Assembly: GCA_900018345.1 (NCBI GenBank)
Contig: FCNA01000058.1
Location: 1 to 38,062, forward strand
DNA from: Clostridiales bacterium CHKCI006
GTDB lineage: Bacteria > Bacillota_I > Bacilli_A > Erysipelotrichales > Coprobacillaceae
Reading direction: 5' to 3'
DNA: 38,062 nucleotides
The notes under the pieces were generated by a model. It did no database searches. It was not told where the DNA came from and was given only the letters and a program-made list of their open reading frames with translations. The position numbers and the translations under genes are program-made. Below are positions 1 through 7,038 of this stretch, piece by piece; within the stretch, counting starts at the first letter, position 1; the number at the start of each line of letters is the position of its first letter.

Positions 1-2
1 GG

Positions 3-119
3 GCTGGGTTGGGTCTTGCGATTGCTAAAACCATTGTTGAGTGGCATCACGGGACCATTACAGTCGAAAGCCATGATGAGCGGATCATTTTTACGGTTAC
101 ACTGCCGCAATTGTCATGA
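3..119 (+). CDS. Sensor histidine kinase, C-terminal end only (VanS-like by position)
   Basis: The first 117 bases read as an open frame that begins before the window and ends in TGA. The peptide begins AGLGLAIAKTIVEWHHG and continues to a typical kinase tail ending TLPQLS. GLGLAIAK matches the G2 box of the HATPase_c domain, so this is the end of the ATP-binding domain of a two-component sensor kinase. It lies directly upstream of vanG, where vanS lies in vanG-type clusters (with vanY and vanW between them in some), so a VanS role is an inference from position. The sensor domain and the response regulator lie outside the window. Confidence 0.8.
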   Translation, partial: AGLGLAIAKTIVEWHHGTITVESHDERIIFTVTLPQLS

Positions 120-170
120 ATTTGTCAGAATTAGGCAAGAAAGCTTTCATAAAATGAGGATGATTCCTTT

Positions 171-230
171 AAAATACACACTTTTCTTTTTGATACCATG
201 GAGGTGTCAAAGAAAAGTGTGTTTTATTTT
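171..230 (+). terminator. Long hairpin with U-rich tail between the kinase gene and vanG
   Basis: The arms at 176-197 and 203-222 pair over about 20 bp (ACACACTTTTCTTT against AAAGAAAAGTGTGT, then GATACC with GGTGTC through one G-U pair and a 2-nt bulge). The loop is 5 nt. TTTTATTTT follows at 222-230, and the vanG ribosome site GGAGGGAG begins at once. It could end the regulator transcript, attenuate vanG, or do both. Confidence 0.6.
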
Positions 231-243
231 GGAGGGAGTAAAG

Positions 244-1275
244 ATGAAAAAAAGAATTGTGATCTTATTTGGTGGACAGTCCAGTGAATATGCGGTCTCT
301 TTAGAAAGTGCCGCTTCGGTGATCGAACATTTAGATAAGCAGCGTTATGAACCTTACTTGATCGGAATCACGACCAAAGGAGAATGGTTCAAATATGAAG
401 GAACAACCAAGCGGATTGCTGATGATGCCTGGCAGCAGGGAAAACTGACACCCGTCGTATTGAGTCCGGCAGGTCTGTGGGAGAATGGCAAGAAGGTTCA
501 TGTCGATGCGATCCTGCCGATCATGCACGGCAAGAATGGCGAGGATGGCAGTATTCAAGGACTGATTCAGCTCAGTCATCTGCCGTTGATCGGTTGTGAT
601 GTGACCGGTTCGGCCATCTGCATGGATAAACATCGCGCCCATCAGATTGTCAGAGCGGATGGCATCCGAGTGCCTAACCACATTGCTTTATTTGCCGGTG
701 ATCCGCTGCCCGAGAACCTGAACTACCCACTCTTTGTTAAGCCCAATCGCGGGGGATCGTCACTGGGCATGAGCTATTTATTAGATGCCTCCGGTCTAGC
801 CCTGGCGGTGGACAAAGCTTTTCAATATGATGAGATGGTCCTTTTAGAAGAGGAAGTCAAGGGCTTTGAAGTGGGCTGTGCAGTGATGGGCTGCCGACAG
901 CTTGTGGCCGGTGAGGTGGATGAGATCGAAGTGGGCAGCGGGTTCTTTGATTATGTCGAAAAATATCAGCTGAAGACCGCTTCGATCCATGTGCCGGCGC
1001 GTCTGGCTCAAAATGAGCGCCAAAAGATCCAGCAGCTTGCCAAACGCATCTATCGCTTGCTTGGATGTCGTGGTTTTGCCAGGGTCGATCTCTTTGTTTT
1101 AGAAAATGGAGAGCTGGTCTTTAATGAAGTGAATACGATCCCAGGCTTTACGAGCCATAGTCGCTTTCCGTCCATGATGAAGGCAATCGGATATGATATG
1201 ACAGAATTATTGACGATCTTGATAGAGGAGGGAATCAAAGATGCAAACAGTATACTTACAGCCGTCCCAAATTAA
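244..1275 (+). CDS. vanG: D-alanine--D-serine ligase, VanG type
   Basis: ATP-grasp ligase of 343 aa that makes a D-Ala-D-X dipeptide for peptidoglycan precursors; D-Ser is the predicted second residue. The N-terminal domain starts KKRIVILFGGQSSEYAVSLE. The ATP-grasp loop VKPNRGGSSLG is at 165-175 and the metal/ligand segment NEVNTIPGFT at 294-303. The omega-loop contains EKYQLKTASIHVPA (239-252). The EKY motif is typical of VanC/VanE/VanG ligases and differs from the usual D-Ala-D-Ala ligases. The ATG at 244 is chosen because GGAGGGAG precedes it by 5 nt; the open frame continues upstream through the hairpin but is not convincing there. The end overlaps vanXY by 35 nt. With vanXY and vanT it forms the standard D-Ser resistance gene order. 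Confidence 0.9.
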   Translation: MKKRIVILFGGQSSEYAVSLESAASVIEHLDKQRYEPYLIGITTKGEWFKYEGTTKRIADDAWQQGKLTPVVLSPAGLWENGKKVHVDAILPIMHGKNGEDGSIQGLIQLSHLPLIGCDVTGSAICMDKHRAHQIVRADGIRVPNHIALFAGDPLPENLNYPLFVKPNRGGSSLGMSYLLDASGLALAVDKAFQYDEMVLLEEEVKGFEVGCAVMGCRQLVAGEVDEIEVGSGFFDYVEKYQLKTASIHVPARLAQNERQKIQQLAKRIYRLLGCRGFARVDLFVLENGELVFNEVNTIPGFTSHSRFPSMMKAIGYDMTELLTILIEEGIKDANSILTAVPN

Positions 1276-1969
1276 TCAGGGACCTCTTGTCCTGGTCAAT
1301 GCCGCACATCCTTACCAGGCTTCTCAAATCCCGGATCTAAAAAAGATCCAAAATGAACAGATGCAGACCCGTGCGGCGATGGCCCTCCAGCAGATACTGA
1401 AGCAAACCGATCGCATCTTTTGTGTCAGCGGTTACCGCAGTCATGCGACCCAGCAGGCACTCTATGAAGACTGTATCAAAGAGCGCGGCATCCAGACGGC
1501 AGCGAACTATGTGGCACTGCCCGGATGCAGCGAACATGAGACCGGCTTGGCCATGGATCTAGCGCTTAAAGGAAGCGACATTGATCTGATCTGCCCGCAT
1601 TTTCAGGATGATCCGCTTTGTGACTGGTTTAGCCGCGAAGCGGTACGACATGGCTTTATTCGCCGCTATCAAGCCAAGGATCAGGAAGTGACAGGGATTG
1701 CGGCAGAACCATGGCATTTTCGTTACGTTGGTCATCCGCATGCGGCTCTGATGGAGCGCTACGGCTGGTGTCTGGAGAATTATCATCGTATCCTGGCGCA
1801 GCATGATCTTTATGACCCATTGATCTATGTGGAAGAGGGCTGGGTCTATGAGATCTTTCTAGTCAGGTTGACACGACCCACTAGCCTCTCTTTGAGAGCC
1901 GCGGCAGCCTATATGCTTTCTGGCAATAATATAGACGGTGTAGTTATCACTGTCCGGAGAAGGGCATGA
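1241..1969 (+). CDS. vanXY: D,D-peptidase VanXY (VanY family)
   Basis: Zinc D,D-dipeptidase/D,D-carboxypeptidase of 242 aa that removes D-Ala-ending precursors so that D-Ser-ending ones dominate. The VanY signature is complete: SGYRS (63-67), SEHETGLAMD (97-106) giving zinc ligands H99 and D106, and EPWHFRYVGHP (156-166) giving catalytic E156 and zinc ligand H159. There is no signal peptide, which fits a cytoplasmic VanXY rather than a membrane-anchored VanY. The start is inside the end of vanG, preceded by GAGGAGGG. The stop overlaps the next start (ATGA), so the operon is tightly coupled. About 50 residues follow the catalytic domain. Whether it acts on dipeptide, pentapeptide or both cannot be told from sequence. 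Confidence 0.85.
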   Translation: MQTVYLQPSQINQGPLVLVNAAHPYQASQIPDLKKIQNEQMQTRAAMALQQILKQTDRIFCVSGYRSHATQQALYEDCIKERGIQTAANYVALPGCSEHETGLAMDLALKGSDIDLICPHFQDDPLCDWFSREAVRHGFIRRYQAKDQEVTGIAAEPWHFRYVGHPHAALMERYGWCLENYHRILAQHDLYDPLIYVEEGWVYEIFLVRLTRPTSLSLRAAAAYMLSGNNIDGVVITVRRRA

Positions 1970-2925
1970 TTTGGCACTATTTTGGGATCGATACGGCGCG
2001 CTTTATTGCCAGTCTATTCGTTGTGATGATCCATATCGATCCTTTTATAGAACCTTTGAATTTTGTCATGACCCGTATCTTTGGCCGTTTGGCCGTCCCA
2101 TTCTTTATGATGACCACCGGTTATTTCCTTTATCGTCGTGAACCAGAAGGCAGATGGCTGAAGACCGTCCTTCATTTGCTGAAGCTCTACGCTTTTGCCA
2201 CCCTGCTCTATTTCCCTTTAATGATCTATAGTGGTCAGCTATCTAGTCCGGGCATGTTTCTACAGGATCTGTTTTGGAATGGCACCTTCTATCATCTTTG
2301 GTATTTTCCTGCCATGATCATCGGCTTAGTCATTGTTGAAGGATTGCGTCGCTATGCTCCTGAAAAGCTCGCCTGGTTTGTTGTCATCCTGCTCTATCTG
2401 ATTGGCTTAGGTGGGGATAGCTATGGGCAATGGTTTATCTCAACGTCATTTTATGCAGGGCTAGGCAGTTGGATGGCCTATACACGAAACGGTCTTTTCT
2501 TTGCACCACTGATGATCATGTTAGGAGCCCATGCCTCCAAGTGCTGCTTAAAACCGCTGGGGATGCTGCTCTTGTTTGGGCTTTACAGCGGCGAAATGAC
2601 GCTGATTCATCAAAATGGCTGGGCTGTTCACGATGCCATGACGCTCTTTTTACCACTGATGTCATTGGCTTTATTTCAGTGGCTATTAAAACAATCATCC
2701 AAGCGTCATCTTTTACTGGCGAATCTGTCGATGTGGATCTATCTGCTTCATCCATGGTTGATTGTTATTGTCCGAGGGATGGCCAGCTTGAGCGGATTAC
2801 TGATCCTTAAAGAAAATGCGCTGATCTTGTATTTACTGACTGTCGTCGGTTCCTTAGGAGCCGGTTGGCTGATCGAAAGGGGGAGAAGAATCGATGGACA
2901 AAAGCAGAAGCTGGATAGAAATTGA
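1966..2925 (+). CDS. vanT: VanT membrane domain, acyltransferase-3 family, as a separate protein
   Basis: Polytopic membrane protein of 319 aa resembling the N-terminal half of VanT. It starts WHYFGIDTARFIASLFVVMIHID, the usual opening of acyltransferase-3 proteins, and has about ten hydrophobic segments up to residue 300. In described VanT proteins this domain, proposed to bring L-Ser to the enzyme, is fused to a racemase domain. Here the frame ends at a TAA 32 nt after the start of the racemase ORF, which is in another frame. The ATG overlaps the vanXY stop. The last residues (ERGRRIDGQKQKLDRN) lie where the linker of a fused VanT would be. Confidence 0.8.
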   Translation: MIWHYFGIDTARFIASLFVVMIHIDPFIEPLNFVMTRIFGRLAVPFFMMTTGYFLYRREPEGRWLKTVLHLLKLYAFATLLYFPLMIYSGQLSSPGMFLQDLFWNGTFYHLWYFPAMIIGLVIVEGLRRYAPEKLAWFVVILLYLIGLGGDSYGQWFISTSFYAGLGSWMAYTRNGLFFAPLMIMLGAHASKCCLKPLGMLLLFGLYSGEMTLIHQNGWAVHDAMTLFLPLMSLALFQWLLKQSSKRHLLLANLSMWIYLLHPWLIVIVRGMASLSGLLILKENALILYLLTVVGSLGAGWLIERGRRIDGQKQKLDRN

Positions 2926-3985
2926 TGAAATGGCTTTGTATCATAATGTGCAGCTGATCTCCCGCCAATTACCTCAGGAAGTTTCTATCATTGCGGTGGT
3001 CAAGGCCAATGCTTATGGACATGGCGCAGTGCCGGTTAGCCGACTTTTAAATACCTGGGGGATCACTCATTTTGCGGTAGCCACCCTGCCAGAAGCGATT
3101 GCCCTAAGAAAGGGCGGCATTCAGGGGGAGATCTTGATTTTAGGTTATACCGATCCCAGCCAGGCCGCACAACTGGTAAGCTATGATCTGACACAGACCT
3201 TGCTGGATCGAAGCTATGCCCAAAGCCTGTCTGCTGCGCGACTTCCTGTGTCATGTCATCTCGCGATGGATACAGGGATGCATCGTTTAGGGGAACAAAG
3301 TGTTTCGAAACTGCAGGCCATATGTCAGCTGCCTTACCTAAAGATGACCGGGATCTTTTCACATCTGGCCGTTCCCGATCAACTGGATCGGACCTCCAGA
3401 GCCTATACGTTAGAGCAGATTGCCTGCTTTGAACGAACGCTTCAGCAGCTTGCGAAAGCCGGTTTCCATCCTTCGATGCGCCATTTAGCCAGCAGTTATG
3501 GTTTTCTGAATTATCCGCAGGCCTGGTATGACGGGGTACGTTTGGGGCTCTGTTTATTTGGTATAGACAGTGATACCCATTCTCATCAGGCCAGCGATTA
3601 CGGGCTTTTACCAGTGCTGTCTTTAAAGAGTCGTCTGGTACTGATGCGTGATCTTGAGGCTGGTGAGAGCGTTGGTTATGGCTGCACTTATATGACCAGT
3701 CATCCTTTGCGCATGGGGGTTTTGCCCATTGGCTACGCTGATGGGATCGATCGCCGTCTTTCCAATAATGGTGAGGTCCTCATACGCGGTAAATATGCTC
3801 CAATTATCGGGCGGATCTGTATGGATCAGATGATGATCGATCTGAGTGGGATACCCGAAGCGTGTCTGGGGGATGAAGTGACACTGATTGGGCCTGGCGT
3901 ACCGGTAGAAAAGATGGCAGCCAACTGTCAGACGATCTCCAATGAGATTTTAAGTCGTCTAGGCCGTCGATTATATACGGACTAG
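2894..3985 (+). CDS. vanT: VanT racemase domain (serine racemase type), as a separate protein
   Basis: Fold-III PLP racemase of 363 aa, predicted to convert L-Ser to D-Ser for VanG. PLP lysine K37 lies in VVKANAYGHG, and the second catalytic residue is Y262 in SVGYGCTY. Aligned by eye, Asn350 (TISNEIL) takes the place of the active-site Tyr of alanine racemases (Bacillus Tyr354, in NYEV). The Tyr-to-Asn change is the known mark of VanT serine racemase activity. The ORF has its own ribosome site (GGGGGAGAAG, about 6 nt before the ATG) inside the end of the upstream membrane ORF, so two separate proteins are plausible. A +1 frameshift in a once-fused gene is the alternative. A terminator follows. 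Confidence 0.82.
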   Translation: MDKSRSWIEIDEMALYHNVQLISRQLPQEVSIIAVVKANAYGHGAVPVSRLLNTWGITHFAVATLPEAIALRKGGIQGEILILGYTDPSQAAQLVSYDLTQTLLDRSYAQSLSAARLPVSCHLAMDTGMHRLGEQSVSKLQAICQLPYLKMTGIFSHLAVPDQLDRTSRAYTLEQIACFERTLQQLAKAGFHPSMRHLASSYGFLNYPQAWYDGVRLGLCLFGIDSDTHSHQASDYGLLPVLSLKSRLVLMRDLEAGESVGYGCTYMTSHPLRMGVLPIGYADGIDRRLSNNGEVLIRGKYAPIIGRICMDQMMIDLSGIPEACLGDEVTLIGPGVPVEKMAANCQTISNEILSRLGRRLYTD

Positions 3986-4003
3986 AAGGACCATCTAAAT
4001 GAA

Positions 4004-4031
4004 AAAAACAAACCAATCAAGGTTTGTTTTT
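4004..4031. terminator. Bidirectional terminator between vanT and bioY
   Basis: Perfect 11-bp stem (AAAAACAAACC, loop AATCAA, GGTTTGTTTTT), with A-runs on one side and T-runs on the other so it can act on both strands. It overlaps the bioY stop codon. Confidence 0.8.
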
Positions 4032-4605
4032 ACTTTAAGATATTTTTCCTGACAATGGGTACCAGCTTATAAGCCGTCAAGGCCCCGAATATGCAAAGAA
4101 GGTAATCCGGAACGGCGGTGATGACAAAGCAGTTGATAAACACCAGTCCCCAACCTACAGGAACATCGATCACATAATTGCTGATGACATAGAAATAGAT
4201 CATTCCGCAAAGATAATAGAGGGCGTACCCAACGGTAGCGATAATGAGATATTGCCAGCCTTTTTTAGGAAGCCAGCGCTCGCAAAGATAGCCGATAGCG
4301 CCGGAGTTAAAGGCAAAACCTAACAGAAAGCCAAAAGTTGGACGGATCAGGTAGGCTGGTCCACCACCTGAGGCAAAAACAGGAATACCGACCAAGCCGA
4401 TCAGAAGATAGATCAGGACACTCAAAAGTCCTCTTTTTCCTCCTAATAGGAATCCTGCCAGTATGGAAAAATAATACTGTAAGGTAAAATGCATGGGCAT
4501 TGGCTGTACAGGAATGGTAATTTGTAAAAATGCACCGATAGCAATCAGCGCCGAAAACAGAGCGCAGATGACAAGATCTTGAACTCGCGATTGTTTTTTA
4601 TTCAT
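4030..4605 (-). CDS. bioY: Biotin transporter substrate-binding protein BioY
   Basis: S component of an energy-coupling-factor biotin transporter, 191 aa, about six membrane segments. Family signs are ITIPVQPMPMHFTLQ near the N-terminus, then LAGFLLGGKRG, and FASGGGPAYLIRPTFGFLLGF. The ATG at 4605 is preferred because GGAGGTG stands 6 nt before it; a longer frame upstream has no such site. No EcfA or EcfT gene is adjacent, so it would use a shared ECF module elsewhere or act alone, as some BioY proteins do. It is unrelated in role to the neighbouring van and ABC exporter genes. Confidence 0.9.
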   Translation of the reverse strand: MNKKQSRVQDLVICALFSALIAIGAFLQITIPVQPMPMHFTLQYYFSILAGFLLGGKRGLLSVLIYLLIGLVGIPVFASGGGPAYLIRPTFGFLLGFAFNSGAIGYLCERWLPKKGWQYLIIATVGYALYYLCGMIYFYVISNYVIDVPVGWGLVFINCFVITAVPDYLLCIFGALTAYKLVPIVRKNILK

Positions 4606-4649
4606 ATAAGCACCTCCGTGTATGCGTTCAATAGACATAATATGTAACC

Positions 4650-4655
4650 ATTATA
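4650..4655 (-). promoter_or_regulatory. Candidate -10 of bioY
   Basis: TATAAT on the minus strand, 45 nt before the bioY start. The -35 17 bp upstream (TTTTCA) is weak. A GGTTACA stretch next to it resembles one half of a BirA operator, but no second half was found. Confidence 0.4.
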
Positions 4656-4732
4656 CACAAAAGCGGCTTAAATGAAAAGAAATAGCTTTGTTCCGGTCGA
4701 TGACAAAATGATATCATTTTGTGAAAAGGCTC

Positions 4733-4780
4733 TTTACAATTGACAGACTATCCCTTATAATATGGTTCGTAGCCGAACAA
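4733..4780 (+). promoter_or_regulatory. marR promoter with candidate MarR operator
   Basis: TTTACA (4733-4738), a 17-bp spacer and TATAAT (4756-4761) form a good promoter. Starting 5 nt after the -10 is TTCGTAGCCGAACAA (4766-4780), which contains TTCG-N4-CGAA. The same 15-bp motif occurs twice more between marR and the ABC genes, which suggests autorepression. Confidence 0.7.
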
Positions 4781-4793
4781 TGGAGGTGGTCAA

Positions 4794-5231
4794 ATGTTTC
4801 GTGATCCTATCGGATATCGAATCAAAACGCTAAGTAATATGATGAAGCGAAACATGGAATGCCAGTTTGGACCCAGAAACGATCGGACAACCCTGATGCA
4901 GGGGTGGATCATCGGCTTCTTAAGCGATCGTGAAGAGAAAGGGCTGGAGACATTTCAGAAGGACATTGAAGAGGAGTTTTCCATCAACCGTTCGACAACT
5001 TCAGAAATGCTTAAATTGATGACAAAACGTGGTATGATCCAACGTCTGCCAGTGGCAAAGGATGCCAGGCTCAAGAAGATCGTCTTGACCGATGAGAGCC
5101 GGGCCATCAATCAACACATTGATAGGACACTGCGCGAGATGCATGCTCGTTTGACCGAAGGTTTGACAGAAACAGAGATTGAATCATTTATCGTTGTTTT
5201 GGATAAATTGATAGCCAATGCCGAAAAGTAG
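4794..5231 (+). CDS. MarR-family transcriptional regulator
   Basis: Winged-helix regulator of 145 aa. The recognition-helix region is FSINRSTTSEMLKLMTKRG (about residues 62-80), followed by the wing AKDARLKKIVLTDES and a C-terminal dimerisation helix. GGAGGTGG precedes the ATG. It lies 76 nt upstream of two ABC exporter genes on the same strand, and candidate operators sit both before it and before the transporter. It is most likely a ligand-released repressor of itself and the exporter; the ligand is unknown. Confidence 0.88.
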   Translation: MFRDPIGYRIKTLSNMMKRNMECQFGPRNDRTTLMQGWIIGFLSDREEKGLETFQKDIEEEFSINRSTTSEMLKLMTKRGMIQRLPVAKDARLKKIVLTDESRAINQHIDRTLREMHARLTEGLTETEIESFIVVLDKLIANAEK

Positions 5232-5251
5232 TGATTTATTTTTTGGCTGTA

Positions 5252-5281
5252 TTGTTCGGTAGCGAATCGTTCGGTTACGAT
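5252..5281. promoter_or_regulatory. Two tandem candidate MarR operators before the ABC genes
   Basis: TTGTTCGGTAGCGAA (5252-5266) and TCGTTCGGTTACGAT (5267-5281) lie head to tail with a 15-bp period and match at 11 of 15 positions. The reverse complement of the first (TTCGCTACCGAACAA) matches the marR promoter site at 12 of 15. They are 27-56 nt before the transporter start. Confidence 0.65.
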
Positions 5282-5307
5282 TAATTTTTAGATGGAAGGG
5301 TGGTTTA

Positions 5308-7038
5308 ATGCTAAAAACTTTGATAAGTCAGGTCAAAGAATATAAAAAAGACGCATTCTTGACAATGTTCTTTGTTATTGTCGAAGTTATTTTAGAAATT
5401 CTGATCCCATTGATGATGGCCGGTATCATTGATGAAGGAATCGAAGCCCAGAATATGAATGCTGTTTATAAATACGGGGCCATCATGTTTGTGATTGTCA
5501 TTGGTACTTTATCAACAGGCTTTCTGGCTGGTAAATATGCGGCAAGCGCTTCGACAGGGTTTGCAGCGAACTTAAGAGATGCGATGTACACCAATATTCA
5601 GACCTTCTCTTTTTCTAATATTGATAAATACAGTACGGCCGGGCTTGTCACACGTCTAACAACCGATGTGACCAATGTGCAGATGGCCTTTCAGATGATC
5701 ATTCGTATGTGTATCCGTGCACCGATGAACCTGGTGTGTGCATTGGTCATGGCGTTTATGATCCATGCTGAATTAAGCATGATCTTTGTGATTGCTATGG
5801 GATTTCTGATCATCGTCTTAGGTACGATCATGTTCTTTGCTACGCGTTATTTTAATCAGGTTTTCCCTAAATATGATGCGTTAAACGAAAGTGTTCAGGA
5901 AAATGTTGTGGCTATTCGTACTGTTAAATCTTTCGTACGTGAAAAATACGAGAACGAGAAATTTGAAAGAGCAGCCCAGAATATCTATAAGCTTTTCGTT
6001 AAAGCAGAATCTGTACTGGCTTTCAACAACCCATCCATGATGGTGGCTGTCTATGGTTGTATTTTATTACTGTCCTGGTTAGGTGCGCAAAGTGTGGTTG
6101 GGGGAACCTTATCCACCGGTGAGCTGACCACTTTATTCAGCTATATCATGAATATCCTGATGTCTTTGATGATGCTTTCGATGGCTTTTGTCATGATTAC
6201 GATGTCGCTTGCTTCTGCCCGACGTATTGCGGAAGTCATCAATGAAAAATCTGATCTGGTCAGCCCGGAAGATGCCTTAACAACGGTTCCTAACGGTGCG
6301 GTTGATTTTAATCATGTGACATTCTCATACAAGCACGGAACCGGTGAACCGGTTTTACGGGATATTGAATTACACATTCACTCCGGAGAGACCATTGGTA
6401 TTATCGGTGGTACGGGGAGTGCCAAGAGTAGTTTGGTCAATTTGATCAGCCGTCTGTATGATGTCGATCGTGGTAGTGTTGAAGTAGGCGGTCATGATGT
6501 ACGCGAGTATGATCTGGAAGTCCTGCGTAATGAAGTTGCCGTTGTTTTACAAAATAATGTCTTATTCAGCGGAACGATCCTGCAGAACTTAAGATGGGGA
6601 AATGAAAATGCCACGCTTGAAGAGTGTCAGGAAGCGTGTCGTCTGGCATGTGCGGATGAATTTATTCAGAATTTCCCTGATAAATATGACACATATATTG
6701 AACAGGGCGGAACGAATGTTTCCGGTGGGCAGAAACAGCGACTCTGTATTGCCCGTGCCCTACTGAAAAAACCAAAGATCCTGATCCTGGATGACTCCAC
6801 CAGTGCTGTCGATACAGCGACGGATGCCAGCATCCAGCAGTCCTTTGAAGAACGGATCCCCGATACGACAAAGATCATCATTTCACAGCGTGTTTCCAGC
6901 GTTCAGAATGCTGACCGCATTATTGTGCTCAATGATGGGGTTGTCGATGGATTTGATACACACGATCAGCTGGTTAAAAATAATGAGATCTATCGTACGA
7001 TCTATGAAACACAGACAAAAGGAAAGGAGGAAGCATAA
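5308..7038 (+). CDS. ABC exporter half-transporter with degenerate nucleotide site
   Basis: Type IV exporter subunit of 576 aa: six membrane segments (about 15-305), then a nucleotide-binding domain. Walker A is GGTGSAKS (367-374), the signature VSGGQ (471-475), Walker B ILILDD (491-496). The catalytic Glu after Walker B is replaced by D496 and the switch His by Q527 (IISQRV). This D/Q pair is what the degenerate member of heterodimeric exporters (TM287, LmrC, BmrC types) carries. The next gene supplies the intact partner, starting on the last base of this stop (TAATG). The likely role is efflux of hydrophobic drugs or amphiphiles under control of the MarR protein upstream. Confidence 0.92.
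   Translation: MLKTLISQVKEYKKDAFLTMFFVIVEVILEILIPLMMAGIIDEGIEAQNMNAVYKYGAIMFVIVIGTLSTGFLAGKYAASASTGFAANLRDAMYTNIQTFSFSNIDKYSTAGLVTRLTTDVTNVQMAFQMIIRMCIRAPMNLVCALVMAFMIHAELSMIFVIAMGFLIIVLGTIMFFATRYFNQVFPKYDALNESVQENVVAIRTVKSFVREKYENEKFERAAQNIYKLFVKAESVLAFNNPSMMVAVYGCILLLSWLGAQSVVGGTLSTGELTTLFSYIMNILMSLMMLSMAFVMITMSLASARRIAEVINEKSDLVSPEDALTTVPNGAVDFNHVTFSYKHGTGEPVLRDIELHIHSGETIGIIGGTGSAKSSLVNLISRLYDVDRGSVEVGGHDVREYDLEVLRNEVAVVLQNNVLFSGTILQNLRWGNENATLEECQEACRLACADEFIQNFPDKYDTYIEQGGTNVSGGQKQRLCIARALLKKPKILILDDSTSAVDTATDASIQQSFEERIPDTTKIIISQRVSSVQNADRIIVLNDGVVDGFDTHDQLVKNNEIYRTIYETQTKGKEEA

Follow-up and report, generated by a model that had tools for sequence, protein, structure and literature searches.

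A VanG-type resistance operon of gut Bacilli in which VanT is very probably made as two proteins from coupled genes

The window analyzed here, i.e. the whole 38,062-nucleotide contig G000:C117 of Clostridiales bacterium CHKCI006, very probably carries a vancomycin-resistance operon of the VanG (D-Ala-D-Ser) type whose VanT is produced as two proteins, a membrane half (VanTm) and a racemase half (VanTr), from two translationally coupled genes. Given that most relatives having VanTm show the same arrangement, which is also known from the vanL cluster, the two-gene VanT is, as judged from sequence, predicted to be the normal working form rather than a broken gene. A pseudogene label for two-ORF VanT genes in gut Bacilli is accordingly unwarranted.

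Gene context of the split VanT

The contig starts inside a histidine kinase gene, which is followed by four overlapping genes in the order vanG–vanXY–vanTm–vanTr (244–3985); vanR and most of vanS lie beyond the contig. The features are:

3–119, + strand: C-terminal end of vanS (histidine kinase), truncated by the contig start; the frame-3 translation, AGLGLAIAKTIVEWHHGTITVESHDERIIFTVTLPQLS followed by the stop, resembles the vanS end in locus L116.
163–231, + strand: strong leader hairpin resembling a terminator, in the vanS–vanG interval, pairing with the vanG ribosome site (z-score -5.5).
244–1275, + strand: vanG-type D-Ala-D-Ser ligase gene.
1241–1969, + strand: vanXY, D,D-dipeptidase/carboxypeptidase (Pfam VanY, E 1e-29; NCBIfam vanXY, 185 bits).
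1966–2925, + strand: vanTm, VanT membrane half with Acyl_transf_3/TmAT fold (Pfam PF01757, E 4e-25; NCBIfam vanT-CELN, profile positions 3-318; structural model; R12-X10-H23).
2879–2888, + strand: vanTr ribosome-binding site, GGGGGAGAAG.
2894–2925, + strand: vanTm/vanTr overlap, 32 nt.
2894–3985, + strand: vanTr, PLP-dependent serine/alanine racemase half (Lys37, Tyr262, Asn350).

Among all NCBIfam ligase models the ligase scores best with D_ala_D_ser_VanG (454 bits as against 338 for the D-Ala-D-Lac ligase), yet this lies below the curated VanG cut-off of 495 bits and we therefore call it VanG-type, not VanG; the racemase half likewise falls slightly below the curated cut-off for vanT-G-Cterm. 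The split VanT thus shares its operon with vanXY and a ligase of the D-Ala-D-Ser type. Since the same genome carries a separate ddl (on contig C8) and alr (on C83), the van operon is an added pathway. By homology VanXY would remove D-Ala-D-Ala precursors, while VanTr would act as a soluble PLP serine racemase converting L-serine to D-serine for the ligase. VanTm would aid the pathway from the membrane, either as a supplier of L-serine or as an acyl-transfer enzyme, and the two proteins, their translation coupled, would act together. In two other loci (L008:2-759 and L038:126-1137) vanG itself lies in two pieces in different frames, possibly representing a broken or mis-sequenced ligase.

The leader hairpin upstream of vanG may be an attenuator of this gene. 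A similar hairpin with a conserved TTTTGATA/TATCAAAA core occupies the same place in L031, L129, L130 and L133, and across the window and these four relatives both sides have changed at 9 of 26 pairs; L128, L131, L132 and L134 have a weak hairpin or none.

The membrane half and its layout across relatives

VanTm covers positions 3-325 of the 326 in the Pfam Acyl_transf_3 profile, matches the NCBIfam VanT membrane region at 192 bits and is collinear with fused VanT. While Foldseek searches against the PDB alone returned nothing significant for the membrane half, and sequence profile searches likewise, VIA-align matched residues 3-308 of its AlphaFold model (pLDDT 81.6, pTM 0.83), in effect the full length, to human HGSNAT (Z 15.3, 281 residues, rmsd 5.0) as well as to GWT1 (Z 10.4), the next, unrelated chain having a Z of 5.7. 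VanTG has been assigned to the TmAT superfamily (PMC12423673), and the R-X10-H motif described for AT3 proteins (PMC9833829) is present in VanTm as R12/H23, which is invariant in 12 sequences of relatives; the second AT3 motif, RXXR, was not recognized by eye in the VanTm alignment. The profile match, the model match and R12/H23 all point to a ten-helix AT3/TmAT membrane domain, and VanTm is predicted to be a complete TmAT/AT3 membrane protein, modelled as the full transmembrane acyltransferase fold. For the VanT membrane domain a role in L-serine transport has been proposed (PMC9558356), and this domain is reported to be where C. difficile vanT mutations conferring vancomycin resistance fall (PMC12423673).

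Close VanTm proteins were recovered from 11 of 43 genomes of the organism's family, across 8 genera. In 10 of the 11 (the window's own included) the membrane ORF is separate and lies directly upstream of the racemase ORF; in one, L012, the two are fused. The two-gene layout is also seen in four loci of more distant Bacilli (L038, L043, L111 and L112), giving 14 separate-gene loci for comparison; by the patterns used, viral contigs held no relative. L031 and L032 are named Massilimicrobiota records with the same match values as two of the family loci, which places the organism's family near Massilimicrobiota. In a pair from this sister genus dN/dS (NG86) is about 0.17 for vanTm and about 0.18 for vanTr, indicating similar purifying selection on both halves.

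Other layouts also occur: 1) D-Ala-D-Ser-type clusters from relatives of the same taxonomic order, with the gene order reversed to ligase–racemase–membrane gene (L015, L016, L017, L117, L118 and L123), which form one clade and in which, among those read, the membrane gene is preceded by its own ribosome site; 2) racemases without an adjacent membrane gene (L033, L036, L048, L039, L040, L069, L088 and L089), of which L033, L036, L048, L069, L088 and L089 belong to VanG-like clusters; 3) VanTm-like genes with no racemase within 1.5 kb (L113 and L114); and 4) a VanTm-like gene that immediately follows a vanR/vanS-like pair and has neither ligase nor racemase within the 1.4 kb downstream (L116:281-2502), where the membrane half is apparently used by itself. 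Lineages in which the VanT membrane domain is its own gene, follows the racemase or is missing from the cluster offer natural tests of whether it serves as an anchor, transporter or acyltransferase.

In a tree of the racemase domain the VanT racemases stand apart from most alanine racemases, and the window groups with the split loci of its family. In a concatenated tree the ten family split loci group together, moderately supported (90/89), and the four other split loci make up a second group (100/99), with fused forms between the two; the split label has to change 4 times on the racemase tree and 2 times on the concatenated tree. These trees exclude L113 and L114 and are drawn from a sample biased toward the window's kin, so that such counts are compatible with fused-to-split as well as split-to-fused change. 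It is conceivable, although we lean against it, that VanTm acts on its own as an acyl-transfer enzyme in D-Ala-D-Ser cell-wall remodelling and needs no physical link to the racemase, that separate genes in either order are the common and perhaps the more ancient condition, and that the textbook fused VanT is derived.

The racemase half and its specificity

VanTr contains the Pfam Ala_racemase_N and Ala_racemase_C domains (E 2e-58 and 1e-43), and its best solved relative is the VanT serine racemase 4ecl (E 7e-91, end-to-end alignment). It retains the PLP lysine Lys37 and the catalytic Tyr262, and has Asn350 where Tyr354 stands in alanine racemases; all catalytic residues that we checked are invariant. 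The first-pass annotation took Asn350 as the mark of serine specificity. The residue does align with the Asn of 4ecl and with the Tyr of a Geobacillus-type alanine racemase, and an Asn at the Tyr354 position is shared by every one of the 14 split, 9 fused and 6 reversed loci while missing from 8 of the 11 alanine racemases used; however, it is not unique to VanT, as unlinked racemases of Peptostreptococcaceae/Clostridium (L037, L042 and L044) have it too. Meziane-Cherif and colleagues are said to have found in 2015 that the Asn marks serine specificity. On this sequence evidence, Asn at the Tyr354 position supports serine use by favouring it, without proving it. In L069, L088 and L089 the racemase has His or Ser at this position.

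The occurrence of this Asn in unlinked racemases, and the abundance of Acyl_transf_3 proteins in general, would fit a second alanine racemase lying by chance beside an unrelated acyltransferase. We hold this to be very unlikely: VanTr sits within an operon with a VanG-type ligase and VanXY, its best family is vanT-G-Cterm (449 bits against 338 for alr in NCBIfam), it clusters on the tree with VanT racemases and apart from the alr of its own genome, and its neighbor VanTm has the VanT-type match and collinearity described above.

The junction between the two genes

As first annotated, VanT consists of two overlapping ORFs, 1966-2925 (319 aa) and 2894-3985 (363 aa), whose frames differ by +1 and which share 32 nt. 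The strong ribosome site claimed for the racemase ORF is likewise borne out: GGGGGAGAAG, before the ATG at 2894, has an anti-SD pairing energy of -10.7 kcal/mol, and none of 46 control ATGs within 900 nt pairs as well. In the separate-gene loci as a whole, racemase starts have a median of -10.55 kcal/mol and other ATGs one of -0.9 (p = 9e-9), weak sites being seen in L008 and L014. Every gene of the operon overlaps the preceding one (vanG and vanXY at 1241-1275, vanXY and vanTm at 1966-1969 in an ATGA), so that the vanTm/vanTr overlap by itself reflects the operon's style and is not a scar. In fused relatives 10-32 residues separate the aligned membrane and racemase domains, and the split in the window falls in this linker. 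The junctions of the 14 separate loci lie at the same place, with overlaps of 1-41 nt (depending on the starts chosen), but stop with TGA, TAA or TAG and differ in sequence. Because the sets searched hold no near relative of the window species (the nearest DNA matches are short stretches of about 66-72%), the junction is not comparable base by base.

It is very unlikely that a programmed +1 slip within the overlap yields some fused VanT beside the two separate proteins. In 13 of the 14 separate-gene loci the racemase occupies the +1 frame, a pattern that common descent also predicts, and the overlap region of the window has tandem AGA AGA codons, though at 6.8 per 1000 AGA is no rare codon here. 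The junctions share no slip sequence, no RNA structure was found at the vanTm/vanTr junction of the window (z -0.27), and L005, with a TAATG junction, has its racemase in the +2 frame while its close relative L006 is in the +1. Rfam gave no match in window positions 1-5400.

It is also very unlikely that one true reading frame was split by a recent frameshift or by a fault in the assembly. L012 and several further relatives do have a fused VanT, and the two halves occupy neighboring frames. Against this, the layout recurs in 9 other family genomes and the four more distant loci, the second gene has a start codon and a strong ribosome site, and both genes are under purifying selection in the sister genus. 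For the lineage the explanation is already refuted.

Of the three readings offered at first, a gene broken by frameshift is contradicted, as is an assembly error at the join, and a natural slip finds no support; the outcome that was to overturn the split, close relatives with one continuous frame, was found in a single family member, L012. Two proteins from coupled genes is the reading that holds, on the evidence of intact halves, a ribosome site for the racemase, the conserved two-gene layout and purifying selection in relatives, and the two proteins probably act together.

Comparison with known Van systems

VanT was initially taken to be a single protein as a rule, which is correct for the VanC and VanN types and for VanG of C. 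difficile, though not in general. In the vanL cluster of E. faecalis N06-0364 (Boyd et al. 2008), according to the review PMC9404765, VanT comes from two genes, vanTmL and vanTrL, so that this cluster and the window both have the membrane protein and the racemase as separate genes in a D-Ala-D-Ser cluster. The vanL halves have NCBIfam models of their own, with which the window scores far below the cut-offs (vanT-L-mem, 134 against 675 bits; vanT-L-cat, 282 against 750 bits); its halves score higher with vanT-CELN and vanT-G-Cterm than with the vanL models, and its ligase is VanG-type. Accordingly, the layout is as in vanL but the window is no vanL member, and, the sets searched containing no vanL sequence, the likeness described is one of layout.

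The vanG clusters of E. faecalis BM4518 and Clostridioides difficile resemble the window in having a VanG ligase, VanXY and the VanT domains in the same order, but in their VanTG an AT3 domain and the racemase make up a single protein (PMC12423673, PMC6182600). VanT-C of Enterococcus gallinarum (L126) and VanT-N of E. faecium (L125) also share the domain order and the Asn at the Tyr354 position, yet are fused proteins of about 700 aa; identity of the window halves is 31% (Tm) and 41% (Tr) to VanT-C, and 34% and 41% to VanT-N. The two-gene VanT described here is therefore a known kind of arrangement, with a vanL-like layout, in a vanG-type cluster of gut Bacilli.
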